A stretch of DNA of 64,000 nucleotides, taken from assembly GCF_012689525.1 (NCBI RefSeq), contig NZ_CP051516.1:3720001-3784000 (forward strand), in the 5' to 3' direction. The notes beneath the pieces are model-generated. The model was not told the DNA's origin. It did not search any database and was given only the letters and a program-made list of their open reading frames with translations. A program made the translations under genes and the position numbers. Source of the stretch: Paraburkholderia aromaticivorans. GTDB taxonomy: Bacteria; Pseudomonadota; Gammaproteobacteria; Burkholderiales; Burkholderiaceae. This document shows positions 3,021-51,476 of the stretch, piece by piece (the stretch's first letter is position 1; every line of letters begins with the position of its first letter).

Positions 3021-4298
3021 ATGATGAGCATGATCGAACTCGATCCTCCCGGCTTCCAGCCGCCGCGCCCGATGGCCGGCGACGAAGGGTCCCGGCGCAC
3101 CGTTCTGTACGGCGGCTACACTGTTTTCAGCGTGTTCCAGCCGGTTTTCTCCGTGTCGCACCGGCGCGCGATCGGTTATCACGCGTCGCTGCGCGCCCAT
3201 GACGAACACGCGCTGCAAGTGCCGTCCCACGAGGTTTTCACGCAAGCCGCGCGACGCGGCGACCTGCTCGAACTGGGGCGGCTCGCCGAATCGCTGCATC
3301 TGGGCAACTTCAACGCATTCGACAGTCACGACGAATGGCTCTTCCTGAGCCTGCACCCCGCCGCGCTGATGGACACCAGTTACGGCGACGCCCTGCTCGC
3401 CGGCCTCAAGGCGCTCGGCCTGCCGCCGCAGCGCGTGGTGCTCGAAGTGTCCGAACAGGCAGGCGGCGAAACCACGCGCTTTGCCGAAATCGTCGATGCG
3501 CTGCGTAAATCCGGCTTCCTGATCGCGCTGGACGGCTTCGGCGCGAAACATTCGAACATTGACCGCGTGTGGAATCTGCGGCCGGACATCGTCACGCTCG
3601 ACCGCTGCATTCTCGCGCAAGCCAGCGAACATTCGCACATTGAGCGCGTGCTGCCGGGCCTCGTCTCGCTGCTGCACGAATCCGGCCAACTGGTGCTAAT
3701 GGGCGGTCTGAGCACCGAACGCGATGCGCTGATCGCGCTCGAATGCAACGTGGACTTCGTGCAAGGCGCCTTCTTCGCGGGCCCGAGCGTCGAACCGGTC
3801 AAGCCGCAAGCGGCGGCCGGCTTGATGGACTCGCTTTCCGCTGCGCTGCGCGAACGGGTCACCGCGCGTGAACACGCGCAATCGGCACGGCTCGCACCGT
3901 ATGTCACGGCGCTCGAAACGGCGGCCGCGCAACTGGTGGCCGGCGAGTCGGTTGCGCAAGCCACTGCGCCGCTTCTGACGCTCGGCGAGACGGCACGTTG
4001 CTTCGTGCTCGATGGGTCGGGCCGGCAGATCGGCGACAACGTGCTCCCGCCGGGGCGTGCCTCGCAACGCGCCAAGCGTTTCCGCCCGCTGCTGCATTCG
4101 GAAGGCGCCAGTTGGGAACGCCGACCGTACTTTATCCAGGCGATGCGCACGCCCGGCCATGTGCATCTCACCCCGCCTTATCTGTCCATCAACGAAGCGC
4201 ATCTGTGCGTGACCGCCTCGATTGCCGCGCACACACCGACGGGCACGCAGGTGCTATGCGTAGACATCAACTGGGAAGTCGCAGCCCATCGCAACTGA
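3021..4298 (+). CDS. Degenerate EAL-domain protein, probably non-catalytic c-di-GMP signalling
   Basis: About 425 residues from the ATG at 3021 (an in-frame ATG at 2988 is an alternative). Residues 30-270 follow an EAL phosphodiesterase layout, but the catalytic motifs are altered. The EAL-motif position reads YHASLRAH, so the metal-binding Glu is absent. The DDFGTG loop is DGFGAKHSN. The K of the KID motif is T (VTLDRCIL). The Glu of the VAEGVE motif is lost (VLMGGLST). Known EAL enzymes need these acidic residues and the Lys, so the protein is more likely a c-di-GMP sensor or a protein-interaction module. The C-terminal ~150 residues are not recognised. The gene ends inside the 3' end of the convergent sigma gene. 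Confidence 0.8.
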   Translation: MMSMIELDPPGFQPPRPMAGDEGSRRTVLYGGYTVFSVFQPVFSVSHRRAIGYHASLRAHDEHALQVPSHEVFTQAARRGDLLELGRLAESLHLGNFNAFDSHDEWLFLSLHPAALMDTSYGDALLAGLKALGLPPQRVVLEVSEQAGGETTRFAEIVDALRKSGFLIALDGFGAKHSNIDRVWNLRPDIVTLDRCILAQASEHSHIERVLPGLVSLLHESGQLVLMGGLSTERDALIALECNVDFVQGAFFAGPSVEPVKPQAAAGLMDSLSAALRERVTAREHAQSARLAPYVTALETAAAQLVAGESVAQATAPLLTLGETARCFVLDGSGRQIGDNVLPPGRASQRAKRFRPLLHSEGASWERRPYFIQAMRTPGHVHLTPPYLSINEAHLCVTASIAAHTPTGTQVLCVDINWEVAAHRN

Positions 4299-5240
4299 GC
4301 TCACGGCGCTGTGCTGGATCCGCGCGAGCAGTTGCGTGACTGCCGTGCGACCCAGCATGCGGTTGGTGGCCCGCAGACGCGCCGCGCTCGTCACCACGCG
4401 CATTGCGACAATCTTCGTGGAGCCATCCGCCAGGCTGTTCGTGGACACGTCGAGTACCCCGACGACGTCGCCCTCGAAGAGCAAGGCGATACACAATGTG
4501 CCCGCCACCGACACCGTCTCCGCGTTGCTCGCGTGCTCGACGAGCGACGTTACCGTGTCCATCCACCCTGCCGCCGCCGGTTCGGACGTGCTCACCGCTG
4601 CCCACACAGGCGCGTCGCTGACGACTTCCGGCGCGTCATTGAAGAGCCGCAATAGACCGACCCGATCCTGCGCCTCAAGCGCCGTGCGCAGACGCTCCAC
4701 GATCCGCGCATGCGCTGCGGGATCCGGTCGCTCTACCGGCGCACCCGCGCGTTGTAGACGCGCTTTGGCCCGATGGACGATCTGCCGGCAGGCCGCCGGC
4801 GTTCGCTCGAGAATGCCCGCGATTTCCGCGTAGTCACAATCAAACGCTTCGTGCAGCACGAACGCCGCCCGTTCGTCCGGTTTCAGGCGCTCGAGCAGCA
4901 GCATCACGCCATAGGACATCTCCGCCGCGCGCAAGGCCAGTTCTTCCGCCGATGGCGCCACCTCGTCGAGCCACAGCTCCGGCAACCAGCCCGCGGCCTG
5001 CGACGCGCGTTCGCGCTGGACACGCCGCAGCCTGTCGATCGCTACGCGCGTGGTGATCGTGGTGAGCCAGGCGGCGGGTATCTGCACCTCCTGCGTGTCC
5101 GCGAGGTGCCATTTCAATCCGACGTCCTGTACCACGTCTTCCGCTTCTGCCCGGCTGCCGAGCATCCGGTACGCCAGCGCGAGCAGGCGGGCGCGCACGG
5201 CCTCGAAGCTGGATGCCTTGTCGATTCCTTGTTCCGTCAT
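4254..5240 (-). CDS. ECF sigma factor with fused C-terminal regulatory domain (ECF41/SigJ-like)
   Basis: 328 residues, starting at an ATG with a perfect GGAGG seven bases upstream; extending the frame to 5348 adds only implausible sequence. Sigma region 2 includes RMLGSRAEAEDVVQD, and region 4 includes ERTPAACRQIVHRAKARL as helix-turn-helix. The linker carries WLPELWLDE, resembling the WLPEP motif of ECF41 sigma factors. About 130 further residues form a SnoaL-like domain, which in that group regulates the sigma factor in place of a membrane anti-sigma factor. The usual C-terminal DGGGR and NPDKL motifs are not evident. An ECF41-type promoter lies just upstream (5336-5362). The usual ECF41 partner (carboxymuconolactone decarboxylase or oxidoreductase) is absent; the divergent neighbour is a clpP paralogue. 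Confidence 0.85.
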   Translation of the reverse strand: MTEQGIDKASSFEAVRARLLALAYRMLGSRAEAEDVVQDVGLKWHLADTQEVQIPAAWLTTITTRVAIDRLRRVQRERASQAAGWLPELWLDEVAPSAEELALRAAEMSYGVMLLLERLKPDERAAFVLHEAFDCDYAEIAGILERTPAACRQIVHRAKARLQRAGAPVERPDPAAHARIVERLRTALEAQDRVGLLRLFNDAPEVVSDAPVWAAVSTSEPAAAGWMDTVTSLVEHASNAETVSVAGTLCIALLFEGDVVGVLDVSTNSLADGSTKIVAMRVVTSAARLRATNRMLGRTAVTQLLARIQHSAVSSVAMGCDFPVDVYA

Positions 5241-5335
5241 ACGTAGACCTCCAGATCGTGCGTGGTGAAAAGCGCGCGGCGCCCTGCCTGCGAAGTGATC
5301 CGGGCGCGCGCCGACATCCTGATTCTTTTCGTCTT

Positions 5336-5362
5336 GACGGCTGGGCATCGAACGATGTGACA
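5336..5362 (-). promoter_or_regulatory. ECF41-type autoregulatory promoter of the sigma gene
   Basis: Read on the minus strand, TGTCACA (5356-5362) is followed by exactly 16 bases and then CGTC (5336-5339). This matches the TGTCACA-N16-CGTC promoter described for ECF41 sigma factors, and it points at the sigma gene about 90 bases downstream. Confidence 0.7.
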
Positions 5363-5382
5363 GCCTCGCAAAAAAATATTTC

Positions 5383-5409
5383 TGTCACGTCGCTCAATGT
5401 CGCGTCGTC
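5383..5409 (+). promoter_or_regulatory. Second ECF41-like promoter, directed at clpP paralogue
   Basis: On the plus strand TGTCACG (5383-5389), a 16-base spacer and CGTC (5406-5409) repeat the motif of the sigma gene's own promoter with one change in the -35 element. It lies 20 bp from that promoter, back to back with it. The clpP start is 131 bases downstream. Confidence 0.6.
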
Positions 5410-5540: not shown

Positions 5541-6188
5541 ATGCATTCCAGCTATCCAACCATTACCGGCCTCGGCCTCGTGCCCACCGTGATCGAGCAG
5601 TCCGGCCGCGGCGAGCGCGCCTACGACATCTATTCGCGTTTGCTGCGCGAACGCATCGTGTTTCTGGTCGGGCCAGTGAACGAGCAATCGGCCAGTCTGA
5701 TTGTCGCGCAGTTGCTGTTTCTGGAATCCGAGAATCCCGACAAGGATATTTCTTTTTACATCAATTCGCCGGGCGGCTCGGTGTACGACGGCCTCGCGAT
5801 CTACGACACCATGCAGTTCATCAAACCCGAGGTATCGACCTTGTGCACCGGCTTTGCCGCGAGCATGGGGACGTTTCTGCTAAGCGCCGGTCAGCGCGGC
5901 AAGCGGTACGCGCTACCGAACGCGCGCATCATGATTCACCAGCCTTCAGGCGGCAGCCAAGGCACGGCTGCGGACGTCGAGATTCAGGCGAAGGAAGTGC
6001 TCTATCTGCGAGAGCGGCTAAATGCCATGATGGCGGAGCGCACCGGGCGCAGCATCGAGGAAATCGCCCGCGACACCGACCGCGACAACTTCATGTCAGC
6101 GCAGTCCGCGAAGATCTACGGTCTCGTCGACGAGGTGCTGGAAACACGTGCGGCGCTGAATGTCGCGCCGTATCACATGGATAGGTAG
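5541..6188 (+). CDS. clpP: ATP-dependent Clp protease proteolytic subunit, orphan paralogue
   Basis: 215 residues, normal ClpP length. The catalytic triad is intact: Ser108 in GFAASMG, His133 in MIHQPSGG and Asp182 in [10 protein letters not shown], with the 25- and 49-residue spacings of E. coli ClpP. ClpP forms double heptamers that degrade proteins delivered by ClpX or ClpA. No clpX, tig or lon gene is adjacent, so this is probably a second ClpP rather than the housekeeping copy. GAGG precedes the ATG. The upstream ECF-like promoter suggests sigma-dependent expression. It could form mixed rings with the main ClpP; that is inference. Confidence 0.92.
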
Positions 6189-6478: not shown

Positions 6479-7915
6479 ATGGCGTCATCCAACGAAACCG
6501 TCAGCATGGCGCTATTCTGCGACTTCGAAAACGTCGCGCTCGGCGTGCGCGACGCGAAGTACGACAAGTTCGATATCAAGCTGGTGCTCGAACGTCTGCT
6601 GCTCAAGGGCAGCATCGTCGTGAAGAAAGCGTATTGCGACTGGGACCGCTACAAGAGTTTCAAAGGCGCGATGCACGAGGCCAATTTCGAATTGATCGAG
6701 ATTCCGCACGTGCGCCAATCGGGCAAGAATTCCGCCGACATCCGGCTCGTGGTCGACGCGCTCGACCTCTGCTACACGAAATCGCACGTCAATACGTTCG
6801 TGATCATCAGCGGCGACTCGGATTTTTCGCCGTTGGTGTCGAAGCTGCGTGAGAACGCCAAGCAGGTGATCGGCGTCGGCGTGCAGCAATCCACGTCCGA
6901 TCTGCTGATCGCGAACTGCGACGAGTTCTTCTTCTACGACGACCTCGTGCGCGAGAGTCAGCGCACGGTCGTTAAGCGCGAGTCGTCGCGTCCGCAACAG
7001 TCTGCCCAGCCGGCGGCCAAACGCGCACCCGACGAGGAGAAGACCCGCAACAAGGAAGACCTCGAAAAACGCCGCACCAAGGCGGTGGAGATCGCGGTGC
7101 AAACGTTCGACGCGCTCGCGTCCGAACGCGGCGACAGCGGCAAGATCTGGGCGTCGGTGCTGAAGAATGCGATCAAGCGCCGCAAGCCGGATTTCAACGA
7201 GACGTACTACGGCTTTCGCGCTTTCGGCAATCTGCTCGAAGAAGCGCATGCTCGCGGGCTGCTCGAGTTCGGCCGCGACGAGAAGTCGGGCGCGTATGTG
7301 TATCGGAGCACGGCTGCGAGTGTGGCCGGCGACAACACGGGCGAGCCTGCCGAAATCGTGGAGTCGGCGGAGCAGTTGTATGAGGCGCAGGTCGCCGAAA
7401 CGGTGATCGCCGAGCCGGGCGGCAAACACGAGTCGCGCCGTCGAGGGCGAGGCAATCGCAAAGCAGGACGCGGCCAACAGGAGACCGTTTACGAAGAGCG
7501 TACAGCCGTCGAGCAGGGCGGCAGCGCTGAGCCTCGAACGCACGACGTGCACGCGCAAGCGCCGGAAAATGCCGAGTTCATTTTTGAACTGCCGGAAGCG
7601 CCTTGGGCAGAGCCGGAAACCGTGACGGCCGAAGAACCGGACGGCTCCGAGAGCCCGGCAGACGCGCGGGATACGAGCGCCAAGCAACCCAAGCGCCGCA
7701 ATGAACGCGCGCCGCGCAAGACGGCTGCGAAGAAAGCAAAGAAAGCCGCGCCGCGAAGCATCGACGACATTCCGGAAATCGCAGCGCCTGCTGAAGCGCC
7801 GGCCGCGTCTGCCGCAGCGGAAGAAGCACCCGCGCCGGCAAAAAAGGCCGCGCGCAAAACTGCGGCGCGCAGTCGTCGTCCGCGTAAGACGGCGGCGACG
7901 AGCGACGCCGAGTGA
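6479..7915 (+). CDS. NYN (LabA/PIN-like) nuclease-fold protein with OST-HTH/LOTUS domain
   Basis: 478 residues from the ATG at 6479, with GGAG seven bases upstream. Residues 7-157 form a NYN domain with the conserved acids in place: Asp15 (CDFEN), Asp87 (KNSADIRLV) and Asp113/Asp115 (SGDSDFSPL), the usual metal site of this RNase fold. Residues about 200-276 resemble an OST-HTH/LOTUS RNA-binding module. A long acidic, disordered stretch follows, and then a Lys/Ala/Arg-rich tail with KKAKKAA and KKAARKTAA repeats like histone H1. The architecture suggests an RNA-targeting nuclease or RNA-binding regulator; the target is unknown. It is monocistronic. Confidence 0.82.
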   Translation: MASSNETVSMALFCDFENVALGVRDAKYDKFDIKLVLERLLLKGSIVVKKAYCDWDRYKSFKGAMHEANFELIEIPHVRQSGKNSADIRLVVDALDLCYTKSHVNTFVIISGDSDFSPLVSKLRENAKQVIGVGVQQSTSDLLIANCDEFFFYDDLVRESQRTVVKRESSRPQQSAQPAAKRAPDEEKTRNKEDLEKRRTKAVEIAVQTFDALASERGDSGKIWASVLKNAIKRRKPDFNETYYGFRAFGNLLEEAHARGLLEFGRDEKSGAYVYRSTAASVAGDNTGEPAEIVESAEQLYEAQVAETVIAEPGGKHESRRRGRGNRKAGRGQQETVYEERTAVEQGGSAEPRTHDVHAQAPENAEFIFELPEAPWAEPETVTAEEPDGSESPADARDTSAKQPKRRNERAPRKTAAKKAKKAAPRSIDDIPEIAAPAEAPAASAAAEEAPAPAKKAARKTAARSRRPRKTAATSDAE

Positions 7916-50387: not shown

Positions 50388-51476
50388 TCAGGCGCGCGGC
50401 TTCAGCAACACCTTGATCGAATCGAGCGAGTTGGCGATCTTGATCGCCTCGTCCCATTCTTCCAGCGAAAAGCCGTGCGTGACAATGCCTTTCGATGTAA
50501 CCAGCCCGCGCGCCAGCAGATCGATCGCGATCGGGTAGCAATACGGTCCAAGATGCGCGCCGCGCACGTCGAGTTCCTTGCGATCGCCGATCACCGACCA
50601 GTCCAGCGTCGTATCCGCGCCGAACACCGAAAACTCGACGAACCGCCCAAGCTTGCGAATCAGGTCCATGCCCTGATTCACGCCGATCGGCGCGCCGGTG
50701 GTTTCAATATACACATCGCAGCCGTAACCGTCCGTGAGCGAATGGATGATCGCCAGCGCGTCGTCCTGTTTCGGGTTGATCGTCACGTCGGCGCCGTATT
50801 CGCGTGCGAGTGCCAGGCGCTCTTCGACCAGATCGATCACCACCAGCTTCTTCGGTGTTTTCAGATGCGCGATTTGCGTCATCATCAGACCGAGCGGGCC
50901 GGCGCCGGCGATCACCACCACGTCGTCGAGTTGCACTTCGCCACGGTTGACCGTGTGGATCGCGCAGGCGAGCGGCTCGATGATCGCGGCATCTTCCAGC
51001 GAGATGCCGTCGGGTATCTTGTGAACAATCGCTGTCGGCGGAATGCGCATGTATTCGGCCATGCCGCCGTCGGCGACTTCGCGCTGGAAGCCGAAGATGT
51101 TGTGCACCTCGCACATCCAGTATTGGCCTGATTTGCAATAGCGGCATTTGCCGCACGGCACGATCTGTTCGGCGATCACGCGGTCGCCCATCTTCACGCC
51201 GAAGTGATCGGCCGCACCCTCGCCAATTTCTTCGACGAAACCGAAGAACTCGTGACCGGGAATCACCGGCGCTTTTACCCATGGGCTCGGGCCGCCCCAG
51301 AACATCTTCGCGCCCGAATGACATTTGCAGTCGCTCGCGCAAATGCCGCACGCGGCAATGCGGATCACTAGCTCGTGCGCGCCCGCGCGAGGCTTCGACA
51401 CCTGTTCGACGCGATAGTCTTTCGGTGCGTGACAGACGATAGCTGTCATGTTCTGCTTGTCGGATTGAGTCGTCAT
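50388..51476 (-). CDS. Zinc-dependent alcohol/polyol dehydrogenase
   Basis: 362 residues, MDR family. Catalytic zinc ligands lie in CGICASDCKCHSG and GHEFFGFVEEIGE. The structural zinc site is CGKCRYCKSGQYWMC. NAD-binding AGAGPLGLMM with the following Asp (VIDLVEERL) favours NAD. The KCHSGAKMFWGG stretch recalls erythritol/L-threitol dehydrogenases, but from memory only. It probably oxidises the imported polyol to a ketose. It lies 38 bases after the permease gene. Confidence 0.88.
   Translation of the reverse strand: MTTQSDKQNMTAIVCHAPKDYRVEQVSKPRAGAHELVIRIAACGICASDCKCHSGAKMFWGGPSPWVKAPVIPGHEFFGFVEEIGEGAADHFGVKMGDRVIAEQIVPCGKCRYCKSGQYWMCEVHNIFGFQREVADGGMAEYMRIPPTAIVHKIPDGISLEDAAIIEPLACAIHTVNRGEVQLDDVVVIAGAGPLGLMMTQIAHLKTPKKLVVIDLVEERLALAREYGADVTINPKQDDALAIIHSLTDGYGCDVYIETTGAPIGVNQGMDLIRKLGRFVEFSVFGADTTLDWSVIGDRKELDVRGAHLGPYCYPIAIDLLARGLVTSKGIVTHGFSLEEWDEAIKIANSLDSIKVLLKPRA

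Follow-up and report, generated by a model that had tools for sequence, protein, structure and literature searches.

Among described regulators, the ECF41 sigma factors are the closest counterparts of the system considered here. In the parts of the paper that are accessible, Wecke et al. (2012; PMC3426412) define the ECF41 promoter TGTCACA-N16-CGTC, find no detectable targets other than COE genes, and state that about 30% of ECF41 genes lack a COE neighbour. Divergent pairs, often with both promoters, are recorded in the same portions of that work (PMC3426412). The NPDKL motif of ECF41 proteins is said to connect the C-terminal extension with the linker motif (PMC7730460, available in part). 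For the Clp protease, the accessible text on Corynebacterium glutamicum reports that SigH controls clpP1P2 in a network with ClgR (PMC3489674), and a review, likewise available in part, mentions a duplicated clpP in P. xenovorans (PMC12117332). A pairing of an ECF41-type sigma factor with ClpP is not described in the available portions of the literature matches listed. Two of these papers name both ECF41 and ClpP, with the mentions in unrelated places of the accessible text. The clade described below may already have an ECF group number.

The window, a stretch of 64,000 nucleotides from the 10.8-Mb genome of Paraburkholderia aromaticivorans, contains a divergent gene pair for an ECF sigma factor and a second ClpP peptidase, separated by a gap of 300 bp. 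Within this gap, two predicted promoters lie back to back. An earlier sequence-only reading of this DNA had given the coordinates and strands of both motifs, their 16-base spacers, and the 20-bp distance between them, and all of these were found as claimed in the window sequence. Judged by sequence conservation, this sigma-ClpP switch is real and strongly conserved, and as far as searched it is undescribed. We consider it quite probable that an ECF41-derived sigma factor activates its own gene and is dedicated to the second ClpP via the paired promoters. The relevant features of the window are as follows.

3024-4298, plus strand: convergent EAL-domain gene (PF00563, E 1.4e-32); its final 45 bp run into the 3' end of the sigma gene (coding overlap 4254-4298).
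4254-5240, minus strand: ECF sigma factor gene, 328 aa, with sigma-2, linker WLPEL, sigma-4, and a C-terminal extension (Pfam Sigma70_r2 and Sigma70_r4_2).
4257-4733, minus strand: C-terminal extension of the sigma factor, homologous to the ECF41 SnoaL-like domain, with DGGG and NPDKL absent.
5240, minus strand: ATG start of the sigma gene, with GGAGG at 5248-5252 ahead of it.
5336-5362, minus strand: predicted sigma-side promoter, with the -35 element TGTCACA at 5362-5356, a 16-bp spacer, and the -10 element CGTC at 5339-5336.
5370-5381, no strand: AT tract AAAAAAATATTT between both -35 elements, possibly an upstream (UP-like) element that serves both promoters.
5383-5409, plus strand: predicted clpP2-side promoter, with the -35 element TGTCACG, a 16-bp spacer, and the -10 element CGTC.
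5541-6188, plus strand: clpP2, encoding a second ClpP peptidase of 215 aa (TIGR00493), with the triad Ser108, His133, and Asp182.

Transcription is predicted to start near 5329 and 5416. The EAL gene is a neighbour that probably does not belong to the switch. The gene after clpP2 (6479-7915) encodes an NYN domain and has a weak, below-cut-off match to OST-HTH/LOTUS.

Based on its domains and motifs, the sigma factor is derived from ECF41 but is not a textbook member. The window protein scores above the cut-offs of Pfam PF04542 and PF08281 and carries a fused C-terminal SnoaL-like extension, which is an ECF41 feature and which the sequence-only reading had recognized correctly. When compared with the extension of 27 ECF41-type proteins, this region gave an hhalign value of 97.4% (E 1.2e-11); the structure models were weak. 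The linker motif that had been pointed out, WLPEL, is present in the window sigma and takes the form WLPEP in many orthologs, but W[LM]P[ED]x is found in just 45 of the 78 clpP-linked rows, as against WLPEP in 52 of 54 comparators that were called ECF41-type by similarity and motif, without a curated list. DGGG is a mark of the ECF41 family and is also visible in an alignment. In the extension of the clpP-linked proteins, both NPDKL and DGGG are absent from all rows (0/78), compared with 48/54 and 39/54 in the comparators, respectively. The 78-row tables and the trees omit repeat loci and the damaged loci L155 and L156; in the tables, L122 and L153 are one locus entered twice and some species occur in two collections, and the counts of gaps given below are of distinct gaps. 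Moreover, the window sigma misses the NCBIfam cut-offs for SigJ (NF007214; 183.6 vs. 271) and SigX4 (TIGR02957; 179.8 vs. 323.25). An ECF41 paralog encoded in the same genome (locus L154, C3:2737000-2743000) passes both of these cut-offs (312.7 and 370.6, respectively), has WLPEP, DGGGK, and NPDKL, and adjoins a carboxymuconolactone decarboxylase gene. This paralog provides an in-genome control for the deviating clpP-linked sigma. Because NPDKL and DGGG are lost, the linker motif is eroded, and the cut-offs are failed, control by the extension must have changed. No COE gene adjoins the clpP-linked sigma gene, the neighbours being clpP2 and the EAL gene (the latter in 74 of 78 rows), and no anti-sigma gene occurs among the neighbours examined. 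The sigma factor probably works like ECF41, without such an anti-sigma gene nearby. The earlier proposal, in which an ECF41-like sigma uses paired promoters to drive its own gene and that of a second ClpP, is supported in part: it agrees with the conservation of motifs and spacers but not with strict membership of ECF41, and the stress role given to the module is at most conjectural.

For promoter conservation, the loci L011-L040 and L041-L068 were collected by protein similarity, which is blind to the promoter, and only the best-scoring loci were kept. L041-L068 and L069-L120 together represent the best 80 of 392 loci, with clpP beside the sigma gene in 28 and no ClpP in the stretch in 52. 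The 57 protein-found loci correspond to 50 distinct gaps after the decayed locus L058 was dropped, and YGTCAC-N17-CGTC is present on both strands in all 50. The first motif base is T in 49/50 on the sigma side and in 30/50 on the clpP side, the rest being CGTCAC, and motif base 7 varies between A and G. As a non-circular test, 39 distinct gaps were aligned on the -35 pair alone (GTGAC-N22-GTCAC); in all 39, the left-hand -10 position then reads GACG and the right-hand one CGTC. In this alignment, both -10 elements reach 2.0 bits per column, as opposed to an average of 0.57 in the spacers, and the AT tract, with the consensus AAAAAtatt among 53 aligned blocks, has 1.1 to 2.0 bits per column. 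When the pattern-found loci are included, all 67 distinct gaps carry both motifs, with the 20-bp distance in 54, a figure that is partly circular. Invariant -35 and -10 elements with free spacers have the look of selection on two promoters. The conservation of both motifs and both 16-base spacers in orthologous gaps, which the sequence-only reading had put forward as one test of its claim, was thus observed. Among the eight pairs first located by the searches of 25 further genomes for both proteins, seven have both promoters; in the eighth (L187), only the clpP-side motif was detected by the scan used. The dropped locus L058, on a contig of an uncultured Paraburkholderia (Vmac symbiont), contains a damaged pair of sigma gene and clpP2 in which the sigma-side motif remains.

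The weight of these motifs depends on their arrangement. Within the window, TGTCACN-N16-CGTC has three exact matches compared with 0.22 expected, the third of which (51408-51434) falls within an ORF of 362 aa. In the whole genome, TGTCACR-N16-CGTC has 15 matches compared with nine for the reversed control, so a lone motif is weak evidence. By contrast, the divergent double arrangement is strong evidence by the genome counts. This pattern occurs in one of 369 class genomes, which is the genome of the window itself, and in 34 of 299 family genomes, 31 of these being among the 39 genus genomes; the control for the pattern has no match in the same 369 class and 299 family genomes. Of the 34 family loci, 32 were read (G706 and G679 were left out), and the sigma gene and clpP flank the pattern in 31 of these. 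The remaining locus (G579) encodes an ordinary ECF41, recognizable by DGGGK and NPDKL, and has no ClpP in the stretch read. Among the eight genus genomes with no match, three (G499, G620, and G637) have the pair and both promoters, spaced beyond the limit of the pattern. Letter-shuffled gaps, in which composition but not dinucleotides was kept, contained both motifs in 0 of 13,400 trials. A chance origin of the paired motifs is ruled out by the genome draws, the shuffles, and the alignment on the -35 elements alone. In a Rhodospirillales locus (L083), an ECF41-type sigma is accompanied by two divergent motifs at offsets -26 and -55, almost in contact, and the stretch contains no clpP; back-to-back promoters of ECF41 type therefore also occur outside the ClpP pair.

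The two motifs lie 20 bp apart in 40 of the 50 distinct gaps and 21 bp apart in five; distances of 18, 19, 31, 51, and 56 bp occur once each. RNA polymerase has a footprint large enough that, across a 20-bp gap, two footprints would overlap and the promoters may compete. A partly competitive switch, in which the AT tract sets the balance between both directions, is a tentative and less probable alternative that draws on the prevalence of the 20-bp distance and on the conservation of the AT tract between both -35 elements. However, the seven further pairs with both promoters, some of them within the genus, tolerate distances of 24 to 94 bp, so the 20-bp distance is not essential. The AT tract may also serve both promoters across the 20-bp gap. 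In L051/L181, L182, and L186, the distance is 31 bp, which is about one helical turn above the usual 20 bp; this fits, but does not prove, an arrangement of the promoters on the same face.

The product of clpP2 passes the cut-off of the clpP equivalog TIGR00493 (323.6 vs. 308.6 bits), and the catalytic Ser, His, and Asp are each kept in 78 of 78 rows. Five positions set ClpP2 consistently apart from the other ClpP rows used. Another ClpP that is 73% identical to the clpP2 product is encoded elsewhere in the genome, which confirms the description of clpP2 as a second ClpP. A pattern that combines the AT tract with the promoter has 18 matches in 59 genomes, all at clpP2. Since it fails to pick up clpP2 in 12 of the 30 genomes that have the pair, this pattern is strict, such that weaker or plainer targets are possible. 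Outside the window, the host genome has 12 exact motif matches. Nine are in predicted ORFs of at least 186 aa, an exact match near the ECF41 paralog lies in a predicted ORF of 356 aa, and two (L002 and L003) are in no ORF of at least 100 aa. A regulon with one target is a proposal based on the strict pattern and on the exact matches of this one genome.

The linked genes have closely matching distributions. The sigma factor and ClpP2 were each searched in the same 59 relatives, of which 35 belong to the genus. Among the 35 genus genomes, 30 have the sigma gene with an adjacent clpP2, four have neither (G009, G010, G033, and G034), and in one (G008) both are truncated. In G008 (L155, contig C9), the rear parts of both genes remain, face to face and with a slight overlap, and the gap is gone. 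This locus looks like a single deletion that removed the promoter region together with the front parts of both genes. Among 25 further chosen genomes, 10 have the pair, two have ClpP2 without the sigma, 13 have neither, and none has the sigma without ClpP2. By these counts, the sigma and clpP2 appear to be near-exclusive partners. The two exceptions (L184 in G459 and L185 in G438), which are two of the 12 ClpP2-bearing genomes among the 25, have a ClpP2 of 85-86% identity and lack the linked sigma. In both, no promoter of the TGTCAC/CGTC type was found within 400 bp ahead of clpP2. The EAL gene, which usually faces the sigma gene, is in G459 the immediate upstream neighbour of clpP2 and has the same orientation; the sigma gene was apparently lost from between them. 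The position of clpP2 behind the EAL gene on the same strand in L184 looks as if another promoter took over. The promoter seems to go when the linked sigma goes (just two cases, both from one genus other than Paraburkholderia), which is expected if the linked sigma reads this promoter. The dependence of ClpP2 on the sigma is not absolute, given that ClpP2 persists without it in two of 12 genomes, and the term "self-contained" that had been applied to the module does not hold for G459 and G438.

Alternatively, both promoters may belong to the other ECF41-type sigma, the one with the carboxymuconolactone decarboxylase neighbour, and the adjacent sigma may be incidental. We regard this as improbable. 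The paralog is present and qualifies as a full ECF41 on both motifs and cut-offs, and the published motif is used by the ECF41 family as a whole according to the accessible parts of Wecke et al. (PMC3426412); since such a paralog sits in the same genome, cross-recognition may occur. However, G459 and G438 keep sigma relatives elsewhere (42% and 41% identity, respectively), and yet the linked sigma and the motifs of clpP2 are both gone. In addition, all 50 distinct gaps have the sigma-side promoter ahead of the linked sigma, and the commonest triplet at motif bases 7-9 is ATC on the sigma side (28/50) and GCG on the clpP side (16/50), as opposed to AA in many comparator loci (by eye).

In the trees, each partner falls into a single clade. 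For the sigma, this clade unites 67 distinct clpP-linked cores (support 100/100, branch length 0.61), and its fork with the 54 comparators is left open by the tree; for ClpP2, it comprises 66 distinct sequences (99/96) and excludes 15 other ClpPs. Pseudoduganella flava (L061) branches off first in the sigma tree as well as in the ClpP2 tree, on a long branch, and has an isochorismatase-family gene after the sigma gene in place of the EAL gene. At G628 and G441, no match to the EAL gene was found in the stretches read, and the two genes still adjoin. The pair is found in Paraburkholderia and some relatives, and the simplest reading is a single origin of the pair, which was then kept together amid different neighbours. 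That the genes are merely neighbours by descent, with the clpP-side motif a by-product of the sigma promoter region, is highly improbable and disfavoured: the EAL gene is likewise conserved alongside, but the -35 and -10 of the clpP-side promoter are invariant in their own right around a spacer that varies freely, the pair outlasts the change of neighbour in Pseudoduganella and in G628 and G441, and both genes were truncated together in G008.

Comparison of the genomes establishes the gene pair, its near-exclusivity, both promoters, the conservation of exact spacers, the intact triad, the single clades, and co-loss. The conserved matching promoters suggest that the sigma switches on itself and ClpP2. 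In this dedicated, self-activating switch, the ECF41-derived sigma, with its fused and reworked C-terminal control domain, would recognize TGTCAC-N17-CGTC and would be activated through a conformational change of that domain. The active sigma would then direct RNA polymerase to its own promoter, resulting in positive autoregulation, and to the promoter of clpP2, which is predicted to produce a catalytically complete second ClpP. ClpX or ClpA are the expected unfoldases of the cell. Under these, ClpP2 may join or mix with the other ClpP, and the resulting protease would have an altered proteolytic capacity or preference.

An extension of this switch, which we consider rather unlikely, is a thermostat of protease capacity: the sigma itself would be a Clp substrate, so that when Clp is swamped the sigma survives and amplifies itself, more ClpP is made, and destruction of the sigma is restored. 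Rpn4 acts as a comparable thermostat of the yeast proteasome. ClpXP tags can end in alanine, in LA-, VA-, or FA-like form. A terminal alanine, often as LA, VA, or FA, is present in 26 of the 35 sigma tails that are not fixed by a long overlap with the EAL gene, compared with 13 of 55 relatives not linked to clpP (one of the 13 being the decayed L058), a contrast that is weak because the 35 rows are related. As a possible Clp tag, the terminal alanine is a weak hint. Of 74 rows, 43 have an overlap of 42-45 bp between the sigma and EAL genes, seven have one of 4 bp, and 24 have none. The window sigma ends in DFPVDVYA, which is the antisense reading of the conserved EAL end LCVDINW; the conserved tail DFPVDVxA was accordingly rejected as a degron in the 43 rows with the 42-45 bp overlap.

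If the proposed switch is correct, an ECF switch that has no anti-sigma of its own now acts on a main protein-shredding machine instead of on small redox-type enzymes. It would offer a clean system, in which two promoters report on a single sigma and what appears to be a single target, and in which one may ask what the C-terminal domain of a sigma factor senses once the textbook contact motifs are lost, and what a bacterium gains from a second ClpP under separate control. It would also provide a hypothesis on function for the duplicated clpP of P. xenovorans, as noted in the accessible part of the review (PMC12117332). That review differs from the present account in making no sigma link there, and "ECF" occurs 0 times in the main text in the form available.

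Compared with the ECF41/COE systems, as presented in the accessible parts of PMC3426412, the locus is alike in having a fused C-terminal extension, TGTCACA-N16-CGTC before both the sigma and target genes, no anti-sigma gene among the examined neighbours, and targets that amount essentially to one neighbouring gene or operon. Unlike those systems, the target here is a ClpP rather than a carboxymuconolactone decarboxylase, oxidoreductase, or epimerase, and the clpP-linked sigma, with NPDKL and DGGG missing and the linker motif eroded, forms a separate clade. Among solved structures, SigJ of Mycobacterium tuberculosis (5xe7, an ECF41) is the best match (159.9 bits, profile positions 7-227); unlike SigJ, the window sigma does not reach the NCBIfam SigJ cut-off, and the match ends inside its C-terminal extension. 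SigG1 of Streptomyces tsukubaensis (ECF56, structure 7qh5) is also among the closest known systems. Finally, SigH of C. glutamicum is alike, in the portions of its literature that are available, as an ECF sigma that takes part in clpP expression; it is a broad stress regulator with an anti-sigma factor, whereas here one sigma appears to be dedicated to an extra clpP.
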